From Desulfurobacterium thermolithotrophum DSM 11699 (GTDB lineage Bacteria > Aquificota > Aquificia > Desulfurobacteriales > Desulfurobacteriaceae), in contig NC_015185.1 of assembly GCF_000191045.1 (NCBI RefSeq), positions 124,001-188,000 of the forward strand: DNA of 64,000 nucleotides. Direction: 5' to 3'. Under the pieces are notes generated by a model. That model had not been told where the DNA came from. It made no database searches and saw only the letters and a program-made list of their open reading frames with translations. Positions 41,242-45,184 of the stretch are shown piece by piece (position 1 is the first letter of the stretch; every line of letters begins with the position of its first letter). Position numbers and translations under genes: made by a program.

Positions 41242-43347
41242 TTATAATTCTATTCTTGTAAGTTCTTTTTTTAGATCTTCTATATTTTCTACGTTATGGA
41301 GCTCTACAAAGCTTAATTGAATGTCAAGTTCTTTTTCTATCTCTTCTATTCTTTTTCTTACTACAGGTTCTTCTACAGTTTCATTTATAAAGAATACAAA
41401 GTTGTCTCCTGCATATCTTACAATATAGCTTGGCTTAAATTTTTCTTCAATCATAGAAACGACTCTCTTAAGGATTTCATCACCTTTTTTCCAACCTTGG
41501 GAAATATTTATTTCTCTCAGCTTAGCAATATCTACTACGTAGACAGAAAATGCTTCTTTTTTATCTTTCATGAGATTGTAAACATACTCAAGAGCATTCC
41601 TATTAAAGACACCAGTTAGAGAATCTCTAAGGAAGTAGTCTAGCCTCCTTTCTTCTATTTCTCGAATTATAGATAAATCTAAATACTCTTCTGTTAGTCC
41701 TACTGGTTCTTCATACATAAGTATAGGTAAAGCTACTTCTACAATTTCAGGATCGTAGAAAATTCCTGCTTTTTCTTTAATTTCTTTTATAGCCTTCTTT
41801 TTATCAATAGCTTTTCTATAAATTCTGTTGCTGGTCATGGCATCAAATGAATCAGCAATTGCTATAATTCTAGCCTCAATAGGTATTTCTTTTTCTTTCA
41901 ATCCTTTTGGATAACCACTTCCGTTCCATCTTTCGTGGTGGTACCTAATTCCATCAAGAGCTCCTTCTAAAAGTTCTATATGTTTAAGTAACTCATAACT
42001 GAGGATAGGGTGTAACTTGATTATCTCGTATTCTTTATCTGTTAACTTTGAAGGTTTTAGAAGAATGCTATCTGGTATTCCTATTTTACCGATATCATGG
42101 AGTATAGCAGCCATATATATATTGTTGATTTTTTCTTTTGAAAGATTTATTTCTTCGGCAATGCGTTTTGAATAAAAAGCTACTCTTTCAGAATGTCCTC
42201 GTGTATAGGAGTCTCTAATTTCAATACCTCGTACAAGTGTCTTAATTATAGTTTCTGTTAGTTTTTCTTCTTTCTTTAATTTTTCTTGTAATTCTGATAT
42301 TAACTTCCTTGTTTCTACAGAAATTGCTATAGATTTTGCTATATTTCTTATATAGTTCTTATCTTCCTGAGGAAGAGCTTTAGGACTTTCTTTAAAAAAG
42401 AGACAAAAACCGAGTTTATGAGAGAATACTTTCATTGGTAACCCAAAAACATACTGAATACCTAATTCTTTTTCTTTTTCTGATAAAATATCTTTTTTTG
42501 TAGTTTCTACTTCTTTTTCTAATTCAAGAATATAAGGTTCTATTCCTTCTAGCTCATTTAATTTTTTCTCTAATTCGAACTTATCGCTTTTGGTAATAGT
42601 TTTTAAGTTTATATTTTCGTTATCTTGAATAATTCCTATTATTATGCCATCAGTTTCTGTTATTTCCAATACTTTTCTCATAAGAGAAACAAATTCATCA
42701 TTAAATCCTTTTCCCACTGTTAAAAGAGAAATAAACTGAGATATTATATCTGCTCTAGTATCTTTTTCTTTAATACTGTCGATCATTTTATTTATGCTTT
42801 TTCTTATTCTTCCAAATTCATCACTTCCTTTTTCAGAAAGTTTTTTTAGTTTACCTTCATAAATGTCTTTAATATCTCTTTTTATTTCTTTTAGAGGAGA
42901 TAAATAAAGCTTTCTTATCAAAAGAAGTAAAACAATTTGAAAGAAAGTAGAAATAAAGAAAACGATTACTGCTATTAACTGAGTTAAAGATTTTGCCTTT
43001 CTTGATATTTCTTTTTTATTTAATGTAACAGTAATTTCTGAAGTTCCATCGGGAAACAAAAGTTCTTTTTTTAGCTGAAACTTTCCAATGGGATTTGTAG
43101 ACGAAAAAGAAACTTTTTCTATATATGGAGCTCTTTCTAGAATCTCTTTTAACTCTTTCTTTTTCTTTGAAGAACCTATTGATGTAGCAACTACTTCTAT
43201 GTAGTTTTGAGCATTCTTAATACTATCCTTTAAGAAATAGTCTTTTGCTATTGACATTGTTGAAAAGTAACTGAGAGTAGTTACCAGTCCTGATATTAGT
43301 AACGATAGAACTGATAAAATCCAATATTTATCAGTATTTTTTAACAT
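41242..43347 (-). CDS. Membrane HD-GYP phosphodiesterase with C-terminal degenerate GGDEF domain
   Basis: A 701-aa sensor. One N-terminal membrane helix (about 11-32), a short periplasmic part (about 33-120), a second helix (about 121-145), HAMP (about 146-200) and a GAF-like region (about 210-355). Then HD-GYP (about 380-550) with RGHSERVAFYSKRI, AAILHDIGKIG and HHERWNGSGYP. The C-terminus (about 570-700) has RDSLTGVFNRNALEYV, but the GGDEF signature reads RYAGDNF, so cyclase activity is unlikely. It probably degrades c-di-GMP. It lies 4 bases after the lipoprotein gene, which may supply its input. Confidence 0.88.
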   Translation of the reverse strand: MLKNTDKYWILSVLSLLISGLVTTLSYFSTMSIAKDYFLKDSIKNAQNYIEVVATSIGSSKKKKELKEILERAPYIEKVSFSSTNPIGKFQLKKELLFPDGTSEITVTLNKKEISRKAKSLTQLIAVIVFFISTFFQIVLLLLIRKLYLSPLKEIKRDIKDIYEGKLKKLSEKGSDEFGRIRKSINKMIDSIKEKDTRADIISQFISLLTVGKGFNDEFVSLMRKVLEITETDGIIIGIIQDNENINLKTITKSDKFELEKKLNELEGIEPYILELEKEVETTKKDILSEKEKELGIQYVFGLPMKVFSHKLGFCLFFKESPKALPQEDKNYIRNIAKSIAISVETRKLISELQEKLKKEEKLTETIIKTLVRGIEIRDSYTRGHSERVAFYSKRIAEEINLSKEKINNIYMAAILHDIGKIGIPDSILLKPSKLTDKEYEIIKLHPILSYELLKHIELLEGALDGIRYHHERWNGSGYPKGLKEKEIPIEARIIAIADSFDAMTSNRIYRKAIDKKKAIKEIKEKAGIFYDPEIVEVALPILMYEEPVGLTEEYLDLSIIREIEERRLDYFLRDSLTGVFNRNALEYVYNLMKDKKEAFSVYVVDIAKLREINISQGWKKGDEILKRVVSMIEEKFKPSYIVRYAGDNFVFFINETVEEPVVRKRIEEIEKELDIQLSFVELHNVENIEDLKKELTRIEL

Positions 43348-43351
43348 TATT

Positions 43352-43873
43352 CTACCTTTCTATGCATAGAATAAACTTTTTATTTCGAGAATATTTTAAT
43401 CCTTCTTCCTTTAAGAGAAAATCGTAAAAAAAAGGATCTTTTAATAAATAAACTCCTTGATTCCAACCTTTAATTAATGTTACTATCTTTTTTTTATTAT
43501 TTAGCAGAGTTTTTTTCACTAATAAGTAAAATTTCGTTTTAATTTCTGGAGTATTAGGTGTTTTCTCTATAGCAATCATACAAAGCTTTATCCAGCTTTT
43601 TGAATTGGATAAAATGTAGTTTGTTGTTTTTTTATCTGTTATTATAGAATTGTACTTACTAAAATTTATAAATCTTACCAGTGCTTTTTCATTTTCTACT
43701 GAATCCATTTGAATTCCAATTTTATTCTTCTGAAAATAACCACAAAAGTTAGCAGCTTTTAGAGGGATTAATAAATACTTGTCGTTTGTAATAAGTGTTA
43801 TATCGTCATTAGAGTTACATCCGCAAATTATAAAAATCGAAAATAAGCTTAAAATAAAATATTTTATTGTCAT
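43352..43873 (-). CDS. Small lipoprotein, substrate-binding-protein-like
   Basis: A 173-aa protein with a signal sequence (residues 1-16) and lipobox-like IICGC, so probably lipid-anchored through C19. The rest (NDKYLLIPLKAANFCGYFQKNKIGIQMDSVENEKALVRFINFSKYNSIITDK) faintly recalls periplasmic solute-binding proteins of the ThiY/NMT1 type but is shorter than those (usually about 300 aa). Function unknown. Its 4-base gap to the HD-GYP sensor suggests it reports a ligand to that sensor, which is inference. More AT-rich and Lys/Asn-rich than its neighbours. Confidence 0.7.
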   Translation of the reverse strand: MTIKYFILSLFSIFIICGCNSNDDITLITNDKYLLIPLKAANFCGYFQKNKIGIQMDSVENEKALVRFINFSKYNSIITDKKTTNYILSNSKSWIKLCMIAIEKTPNTPEIKTKFYLLVKKTLLNNKKKIVTLIKGWNQGVYLLKDPFFYDFLLKEEGLKYSRNKKFILCIER

Positions 43874-43904: not shown

Positions 43905-45146
43905 TCAATCTATACATGTTGCTAAAATGTCAGCAATGTGTAAAGACTTAATATTGGAATTAATCCTTTCTAATCCTTCAGCAATATTCATGACACATCC
44001 AGGACATTCAGTAAGAACAAAATTACTTTTTGTCTTTTCTATATTTCTTACTTTTTTAAGTTGAATTTCTTTTGAAATTTCTGGATGAGAAAGCTTGAAT
44101 GAACCTCCCATTCCACAGCAATTGTCTGCCTCTTCTAGATTTACAAATTCGATGTTTTCAATGACCTTTAAAACATCTAACGGATAATTTTTTGGAATTT
44201 TCTGTCCCCTAACAATGTGACATGGATGATGCCATGTAACTATTACTTTTTGCGGAAACTTCCACTTTCTTAATTCTTCAAGATTTTCAAAAAGTACTTC
44301 TATTAATTCTTTTGTTTTGAAGCTTGGTTCATTGTATTCTTTTTTCAGAATGTGTCCACAAGTGGCACAAGCTGTTACTACAAAATCAACGTTTAAGTTT
44401 TGGAATGTTTTAAGGTTTTTTTCCTTCATTTTTTCAAAGGTTTTAAGATCTCCTGCAAAAAATGCTGGAGCTCCACAGCAATATTGATCACGAGGAACAA
44501 AAACAGAGTATCCAAGGGCATTTAAAACTTTTACGACGTTTTGGGCAGTTTCAGTATAAAAATTATTAAGCATGCAACCTGAAAAAAAGGCTACTTTTCC
44601 TTTTTCTTTTCCCTTTGCACTGTACCATCTATCTTTATCGTTAAAAGGCGTTGATTTTATTTCAGGAAGAAGAACTTTTCCAATTTTAGGAATATCTATT
44701 GGAAAGAGTCTATTTTGAGGACTTTTGGAACTCTTGGTAAAAATCTTTGTTAGTGGTGCTGCAACTTTTCCAAGTGCTTTGAGTAATTCTCTGTTTGAAA
44801 ATAGAAAAACAGCTGCTTTTTTTTCAGGTGACAAACCAAACTTTTCCACACAGAGAGCTCTTGCAGAAATAATTATTTTTTCATAGTCAACTTTCAAAGG
44901 ACAAATTTCAGCACATCTAAGACAAGTTGCACAGAGATTAAAAATTCCAGCAGCTTCTTTGTCAAGTTTGATATTCCCTTTATTTATCATGTTGGCAAGG
45001 AAAATTTTACCTCTGGCAACAGAAGGTTCTTCGTGAGTAACGTTAAATACGGGACAGACAGTTCTACAGGAACCACAGCGAACGCACTTTTCTATAACTT
45101 CGTCGCTGATACCAAGTATTTTCTTCTTACTTTCTTTTTCCGTCAT
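43905..45146 (-). CDS. GlcF/HdrB-like Fe-S oxidoreductase (two 4Fe-4S clusters, CCG domains)
   Basis: A 413-aa protein. Two [4Fe-4S] motifs (CVRCGSCRTVCP and CATCLRCAEICP) are followed by two cysteine-rich CCG domains (SGCMLNNF...QYCCGAPAFFAGD...ACATCGH and HHPCHIVRG...DNCCGMGGSFKL...ECPGCVMN). This matches GlcF/GlpC/LldE-type subunits that carry electrons from a flavin dehydrogenase to a carrier. No flavin subunit is adjacent, so the partner is unknown. ATG 45146 follows GGAG; TTG 45158 is the longer choice. It lies 38 bases after pyrK. Confidence 0.85.
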   Translation of the reverse strand: MTEKESKKKILGISDEVIEKCVRCGSCRTVCPVFNVTHEEPSVARGKIFLANMINKGNIKLDKEAAGIFNLCATCLRCAEICPLKVDYEKIIISARALCVEKFGLSPEKKAAVFLFSNRELLKALGKVAAPLTKIFTKSSKSPQNRLFPIDIPKIGKVLLPEIKSTPFNDKDRWYSAKGKEKGKVAFFSGCMLNNFYTETAQNVVKVLNALGYSVFVPRDQYCCGAPAFFAGDLKTFEKMKEKNLKTFQNLNVDFVVTACATCGHILKKEYNEPSFKTKELIEVLFENLEELRKWKFPQKVIVTWHHPCHIVRGQKIPKNYPLDVLKVIENIEFVNLEEADNCCGMGGSFKLSHPEISKEIQLKKVRNIEKTKSNFVLTECPGCVMNIAEGLERINSNIKSLHIADILATCID

Positions 45147-45184
45147 TAAGTTCTCCAATAAGTTACTAAGAACTAATGAAATGA

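Follow-up and report, generated by a model that had tools for sequence, protein, structure and literature searches.

The stretch of DNA analyzed here (the window, 64,000 nucleotides) belongs to Desulfurobacterium thermolithotrophum, a heat-loving, deep-sea bacterium with a genome of 1,541,968 bases in one contig. The window carries a pair of adjacent genes on the minus strand. The first open reading frame (ORF) encodes a lipoprotein of 173 amino acids (aa), and the second encodes a membrane sensor of 701 aa that combines an HD-GYP domain with a degenerate GGDEF domain. Both ORFs, as well as the spacing of 4 bases between the lipoprotein stop and the sensor ATG, are as given in a preliminary description of this DNA. 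The pair is interpreted here, with moderate confidence, as a two-gene sensory module: the sensor would be an inner-membrane phosphodiesterase of cyclic di-GMP (c-di-GMP), and the lipoprotein, resembling one half of a solute-binding protein (SBP), would be its dedicated periplasmic subunit.

Homologues of the lipoprotein were found in 19 of the 61 relatives searched, and all of these genomes belong to the window's own family, represented by 22 genomes in the search. The same 19 carriers were returned when 136 genomes of the phylum were searched with a profile. The N-terminal frame of the sensor lies directly 3' of the lipoprotein gene in all 19 genomes, and the sensor start nearest to the lipoprotein stop is at -14 to +22 nucleotides (nt) in 18 of the 19 loci. 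In the remaining one (L021, genome G006) the sensor frame is open, but no ATG, GTG or TTG is present in frame near the start. Incomplete sensors were found in G003 and G019, where they are cut by contig ends, and in G008, where stops or frame changes interrupt the reading frame. Three genomes of the family (G001, G002, and G011) yielded neither the lipoprotein nor a full-length orthologue of the sensor; the first two retain the upstream Fe-S gene without the pair, and G011 is 62% complete. The gene 5' of the pair encodes an Fe-S/CCG protein in 16 of the 19 genomes, being replaced by SfsA in G005 (Pfam), by a similar gene in G010, and by a DNA-polymerase-like ORF, recognized by eye, in G007. 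The preliminary description had named unlinked genes in relatives as grounds for abandoning the pairing; instead, the two genes were found together in all three neighborhoods. Because the linkage is complete, the two genes are absent jointly, and the pair stays intact beside differing 5' genes, the lipoprotein is read here as the sensor's partner.

In two of the four genome pairs tried, the ratio of nonsynonymous to synonymous substitution rates (dN/dS) was close to 0.10 for the lipoprotein and lay at 0.07-0.10 in the GGDEF part of the sensor; one of these two has saturated dS for the lipoprotein, and the other two pairs were not computable for either region. Conservation in 19 genomes and a dN/dS near 0.1 rule out the lipoprotein as a chance ORF. 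A wider distribution of the lipoprotein was also considered and rejected: among the 114 genomes outside the family only three weak profile matches were found, including one with five in-frame stops and one (L079) that, by eye, resembles YidC.

According to Pfam, the genes 3' of the pair encode 2-oxoacid oxidoreductase subunits and a succinyl-CoA-ligase-type pair, and those 5' of it encode Fe-S/CCG and DHODB-type proteins. These flanking genes are of the reductive tricarboxylic acid cycle type. The features of the locus are collected in Table 1.

Table 1. Features of the lipoprotein-sensor locus (positions within the window)
Feature	Positions	Strand	Basis
Lipoprotein gene, one-lobed SBP-like, 173 aa	43352..43873	-	ORF, lipobox, homologues, AlphaFold2 model, fold matches
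Lipoprotein signal peptide, residues 1-18	43820..43873	-	Lipobox, alignment
Lipid-anchor Cys19, invariant 19/19	43817-43819	-	Alignment
Cys98, invariant 19/19	43580..43582	-	Alignment; possible disulfide with Cys170
Hairpin loop, residues 105-111, at place of SBP lobe 2; insert site in genus g7	43541..43561	-	Modelled secondary structure, alignment A1
Cys170, invariant 19/19	43364..43366	-	Alignment
Membrane HD-GYP sensor gene, 701 aa	41242..43347	-	ORF, Pfam, orthologue alignment A2
Transmembrane segment 1, residues 10-28	43264..43320	-	Hydropathy
Small periplasmic domain, residues 35-118, helix-helix-three strands-helix	42994..43245	-	AlphaFold2 model
Transmembrane segment 2, residues 124-142	42922..42978	-	Hydropathy
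HAMP-like linker, residues 149-193	42769..42903	-	Pfam HAMP 21.2 bits, below 25-bit cut-off
Conserved cytoplasmic region, residues 196-350, putatively GAF-like	42298..42762	-	Position and partial PmGH alignment
HD-GYP domain, residues 371-535	41743..42237	-	Pfam HD_5; metal-ligand residues
Degenerate, C-terminally shortened GGDEF, residues 574-677	41317..41628	-	Pfam; comparison with the genome's other 10 GGDEF domains
AGDNF signature, residues 646-650	41398..41412	-	Sequence reading
Fe-S/CCG protein gene, 5' of the pair	43905..45158	-	Pfam CCG; neighborhood comparison

The lipoprotein has a hydrophobic N-terminus (residues 1-19) and the lipobox IICGC. No Pfam match was found for it, including matches of the YfiR/HmsC type, which were likewise absent from Pfam results for all 19 members. 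An NCBIfam SBP model was matched by only one of the 19 (E 8.3e-4); NCBIfam at E 0.1 gave nothing for the four long lipoproteins of the genus g7 and for that of G009. None of the 19 lipoproteins, whether short or long, lacks Cys98 or Cys170, and these two cysteines may form a disulfide. A periplasmic disulfide in this anaerobe would be of interest in its own right.

All fold comparisons of the lipoprotein rest on the best of five disagreeing AlphaFold2 models (nine input sequences; predicted local distance difference test, pLDDT, 88.6; predicted template modelling score, pTM, 0.84). In this model, strands and helices follow one another as in SBP lobe 1, and then come a hairpin (strands 76-86 and 94-102) and returning helices. 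Foldseek gave 25 matches at E <=0.001 (best E 2.4e-6), of which 24 carry the name of Thi5, of the Thi5 relative CA3427, or of a solute-binding protein, and the last has no function name. In VIA, 154 of the 155 lipoprotein residues were aligned to residues 1-272 of the Thi5 chain 4esx_A (Z 14.3; root-mean-square deviation, rmsd, 2.9), with about 118 residues of the latter skipped. Thus, the modelled lipoprotein shares lobe 1 and the return to lobe 1 with the NMT1/THI5-type SBPs (Thi5, TauA, SsuA, and CmpA). Unlike these proteins, it lacks lobe 2 and has neither a Pfam match nor an adjoining ABC transporter gene. A longer form was found only in g7 (4 of the 19 lipoproteins), where about 60 additional residues are located exactly within the hairpin; this insert is likely a remnant or a small version of lobe 2.

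Profile comparisons are independent of the AlphaFold2 model. The mature sequences of all 19 members, compared with 12 SBPs of the family f3, matched at positions 100-144 to 180-227 (P 1.4e-4) and, collinearly, at 19-35 to 14-30 (P 0.023); the best of 60 column-shuffled decoys had P 0.038. These two matches fall at the return to lobe 1 and at the start of lobe 1, respectively. The same two were obtained with a mixed set of 15 SBPs (P 7.7e-4 and 0.015; best decoy 0.0087). Retaining the signal peptides, which may inflate the scores, resulted in P 1.8e-5 for all 19 members and 0.0091 for the four long g7 lipoproteins alone; unrelated profiles gave P 0.059 or worse. The NMT1 proteins encoded in g7 genomes (L105, L106, L124, and L126) had no profile match to the lipoprotein (P >=0.067). 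In the D. thermolithotrophum genome itself, no NMT1 match was found at E 0.001 and no NMT1_2 match at 1e-6. The assignment of the lipoprotein as one lobe of an NMT1/Thi5-type SBP, with a hairpin replacing lobe 2, has the support of the model and, in part, of the profiles. A loss of lobe 2 is suggested because two lobes are the rule for SBPs and not by a tree; the Fe-S protein tree made to polarise this change had an unresolved backbone. The faint likeness to SBPs noted in the preliminary description is borne out by the modelled fold and partly by the profiles, for one lobe only. Because just this lobe is present and the classical ligand-trapping cleft is missing, the delivery of a ligand by the lipoprotein, also proposed there, appears doubtful for the one-lobed form.

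The periplasmic domain of the sensor was modelled by AlphaFold2 as a three-stranded domain of 84 residues (pLDDT 85.8, pTM 0.67). A fold search with it gave no match at E 0.001. Weak likeness was seen to WalK, RisS, and ligand domains of chemoreceptors, with Z <=6.3 in VIA (WalK, 91 residues aligned, rmsd 3.6), a value that may reflect only a common arrangement. In the g7 sensors, this domain has 12-13 extra residues in G013 and G016, the two g7 rows readable in alignment A2; they were also seen in G019 and in none of the 13 other readable rows. This alignment omits G008, includes G006 only from its first ATG on, and retains the drifted G014. On the cytoplasmic side, the 155-residue region 196-350 gave no Pfam match on its own; it contains a conserved GKGFNGEF-type stretch, and the alignment with PmGH, the GAF-HD-GYP protein of Persephonella marina, begins at residue 293.

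The HD-GYP domain matched HD_5 with E 1.2e-43 (149.3 bits; cut-off 27.2) and shares seven metal ligands with that of PmGH (PMC4159591): His385, His417, Asp418, His446, His470, His471, and Asp499. Six of these positions are kept in all 18 sensor sequences compared (a set that includes the window and two partial sequences) and the seventh, Asp305 in PmGH numbering, in 17. The eighth ligand, Glu185 of PmGH, is replaced by a tyrosine (Tyr381) in all 18, which places the sensors outside the trinuclear E/D-T-G subgroup. The domain, called intact in the preliminary description, is thus so at seven of the eight positions. By its residues it falls in the Y/F subgroup, for which a binuclear site is expected in the PmGH paper (PMC4159591). 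The sensor further differs from PmGH in being membrane-bound and in having a GGDEF tail. In the sensor of G014 (L035), both domains drift: the positions of PmGH Asp183, Asp305, and Asp308 are occupied by Glu, the GGDEF signature reads SNSLF, and a block is missing.

The GGDEF domain of the sensor matched only positions 3-113 of the 161-position Pfam profile (E 1.5e-11) and has neither a GG(D/E)EF signature nor the full length. The AGDNF reading of the preliminary description was confirmed, and the family signature is SGDNF, found in 16 of the 18 sequences; AGDNF occurs in the window only and SNSLF in the remaining one. Asp606, Asn614, and Asp623 (the D of the GD pair) are kept in 17 of the 18. 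A serine in the first signature position is not inactivating alone, because MbaA of Vibrio cholerae has SGDEF at this site, yet c-di-GMP synthesis by it has been reported (PMC8079147). What counts for the predicted inactivity is the change of Glu to Asn in position 4, the lost Asp of the 'IND' motif, and the missing C-terminal stretch. The steady motif and the purifying selection suggest that the tail serves a purpose other than catalysis, for instance in GTP binding or dimerisation. FimX, for which GTP-dependent activation has been reported (PMC8846402), provides a precedent: it also has a non-canonical GGDEF joined to a phosphodiesterase domain, although its motif is GDSIF and the partner domain is EAL.

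In total, 11 GGDEF domains were found in the D. thermolithotrophum genome: seven with the signatures GGEEF, GGDEF, or GGEEI, and four degenerate ones with VSDQF, RGDRF, DSNEF, and AGDNF. All four degenerate domains occur with a phosphodiesterase domain, including two in frame with EAL, one with an EAL interrupted by an insertion, and the window's with HD-GYP. None of the other seven domains coincides with an EAL match or with the genome's three HD-GYP matches, HD_5 not being searched by family. A degenerate GGDEF next to a phosphodiesterase domain is therefore the rule in this genome, and the dead GGDEF of the window is ordinary. The interrupted GGDEF/EAL gene (L171, G000:C1:929000-933000) is split by an insertion-sequence transposase gene with integrase-core and IS481-type Pfam matches.

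A described SBP for comparison with the lipoprotein is NspS, which is two-lobed and not known to be a lipoprotein. In V. cholerae, NspS is bound to the periplasmic domain of MbaA, a membrane c-di-GMP enzyme encoded directly downstream (PMC8079147). The same order, with a one-lobed SBP-like protein in place of the SBP, was found in all 19 loci of the window's family. NspS is reported to act on MbaA when bound to norspermidine, and MbaA differs from the window's sensor in having GGDEF and EAL domains and no HD-GYP (PMC8079147). A general statement on SBPs acting on membrane c-di-GMP enzymes is also present in PMC9602780. In YfiBNR and HmsC-HmsD, a membrane c-di-GMP enzyme is under the control of a separate periplasmic protein (PMC4887326; PMC8846402), as is proposed for the window pair, although HmsD is a cyclase (PMC8846402). 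Among the SBP-clan domains, only one family is named as studied in c-di-GMP networks in a 2022 review (PMC8846402). A pair with an HD-GYP output or a one-lobed SBP was not found in print in a literature search made mostly at listing level, which also gave no paper naming both Desulfurobacteriaceae and c-di-GMP; a term search in the main text of the HR11 paper (PMC12724263) gave no link to H2 physiology. Thus, the suggestion that such a pathway is not described needs to be narrowed: systems in which an SBP acts on a membrane c-di-GMP enzyme encoded next to it have been described, and new, as far as the searches show, is a one-lobed SBP with an HD-GYP output.

Pairs of SBP and sensor genes were also found elsewhere in Aquificota. 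For f3, 12 loci were examined out of 14 genomes with an NMT1 match (G111 and G057 were left out). In all 12, a full-length NMT1-type SBP gene lies directly 5' of a membrane sensor gene, with a gap of -14 to +9 nt. These SBPs are 308-320 aa long, and 11 have a lipobox-like Cys; in the three analyzed with Pfam, NMT1 covers nearly the whole profile. The sensors are membrane proteins with similar N-termini and have a GGDEF motif in 11 and an EAL motif in 10 cases, the ORFs in L160 and L165 being shorter; HAMP, GGDEF, and EAL were found by Pfam in each of the five analyzed. The f3 loci (L154-L165, e.g., L159:502-3529) are candidates for an NspS-MbaA-like system that uses a different SBP family. In the family f4 (three loci examined of five; L123 and L128 were left out), the NMT1 protein is encoded beside ABC permease- and ATPase-like genes, recognized by eye as the usual transport setting. 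In f2, the sister family within the same order, genome G022 has an ABC_sub_bind gene (E 4.4e-11) located 5' of, and overlapping, an HD-GYP/degenerate-GGDEF gene. An intact GGDEF gene precedes both, so that this locus (L167:2160-7249) may be a three-gene module. Three HD-GYP proteins of f2 also end in a short GGDEF-like tail; two have no recognizable motif, and the third (L166) reads GDDEF. Together, these loci suggest that SBPs are coupled to c-di-GMP enzymes in more than one family of the phylum, and that both the SBP family and the output vary.

Several results weigh against an SBP-derived subunit dedicated to the sensor. The five AlphaFold2 models of the lipoprotein disagree, with mean pLDDT of 88.6, 78.6, 55.3, 49.2, and 37.1. 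No Pfam SBP match was found among the 19 members, and there was no real match to the lipoprotein among sequences of solved structures. In the profile comparison with the mixed SBP set, the best decoy scores at least as well as the N-terminal match. When only the 15 short forms are compared with the f3 SBPs, the best alignment is at 28-142 to 116-227, that is, through the lobe-2 region and not around it, and the mixed set gives a similar result; the mature long g7 lipoproteins alone gave no match (P 0.11 at best). The comparison of sensor periplasmic domains between the window's family and f3 gave P 0.023, against 0.026 for the best decoy. Among the three HD-GYP loci examined in f2, one has an SBP gene 5' of the sensor, L166 (G022) does not, and that of G023 is cut by the contig start. 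Finally, in a mirror-tree test performed without G008 and G019 (broken or cut sensors), the lipoprotein correlates better with the Fe-S protein (rho 0.90, 78 genome pairs) than with the sensor periplasmic part (rho 0.75, 120 pairs); because partnership and common descent are not separable here, this test is uninformative.

For the proposed module, the following mechanism appears most likely. The lipid-anchored lobe would bind the sensor's small periplasmic domain and set its conformation. The HD-GYP domain would receive this change through the second transmembrane segment, the HAMP-like linker, and the GAF-like region, with c-di-GMP hydrolysis raised or lowered as a result. The GGDEF tail may act as a regulatory or dimer module, perhaps through GTP binding as in FimX. 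In the model, the mature lobe starts within about 6 residues of the lipid anchor; since no linker follows the anchor Cys, the lobe would sit on the membrane carrying it, and the lipoprotein should be in the inner membrane in order to touch the 84-residue domain. The outer input of the preliminary description, if the outer membrane was meant, hardly agrees with such contact. Tentatively, the half-SBP may complete a ligand site or a signalling state only together with its receptor, having evolved within a wider Aquificota habit in which SBPs are joined to c-di-GMP enzymes and both the SBP family and the output can be exchanged; this elaboration is possible rather than probable.

Another interpretation retains a ligand response like that of NspS-MbaA: the lone lobe and the sensor periplasmic domain would form a composite pocket, and a small molecule would still be sensed. 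The SBP origin of the lipoprotein, indicated by fold and profile, is consistent with such a pocket. So are the invariant Asp80 and the near-invariant Thr83, which are located where strand 3 ends and the following helix begins, a place at which anions are often held in SBP lobes, but conserved residues of the lipoprotein are also present elsewhere. The extra residues of the g7 lipoproteins co-occur with those of the sensors; being confined to one clade, this co-variation counts as a single event. With a modelled sensor domain that is three-stranded and has no close fold match, the composite pocket appears rather unlikely. Alternatively, no solute may be involved, and a Cys98-Cys170 disulfide or the abundance of the lipoprotein would report redox state or envelope stress, as HmsC acts on HmsD or YfiR on the cyclase YfiN. 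The invariance of both cysteines and the HmsC-HmsD precedent (PMC8846402) agree with this regulator, which is nevertheless unlikely, as in a thermophile a disulfide may have no more than a structural role and the lipoprotein has no Pfam likeness to known periplasmic regulators.

The two genes could also be operon companions without physical partnership, with the lipoprotein having an unrelated envelope role. The uninformative mirror-tree leaves room for this, as does the fact that contact between the proteins is inferred, but such companionship is made quite improbable by the complete linkage in three neighborhoods, by the lack of both genes in the same genomes, and by SBP-sensor pairs of the same order elsewhere in Aquificota. 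As for the GGDEF domain, it could be an active cyclase, and the sensor bifunctional: the three residues named above are kept in 17 of 18 sensors, and a non-canonical first signature residue is tolerated in MbaA (PMC8079147). The Asn at the second acidic signature position, together with the absent 'IND' Asp and C-terminal stretch, leaves very little probability for this activity.

The inputs of most c-di-GMP enzymes are unknown. If the lone lobe of the lipoprotein is the regulator of the HD-GYP sensor, this would show that an SBP can persist as a signalling subunit after the half that traps the ligand has been lost. In that case, the 155-residue lobe and the 84-residue receptor domain would also make a small, presumably heat-stable pair for structural studies. 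Judging from the f3 loci and from one locus of f2, SBP-gated c-di-GMP sensing appears to recur across Aquificota, with both the sensor and the output changing.

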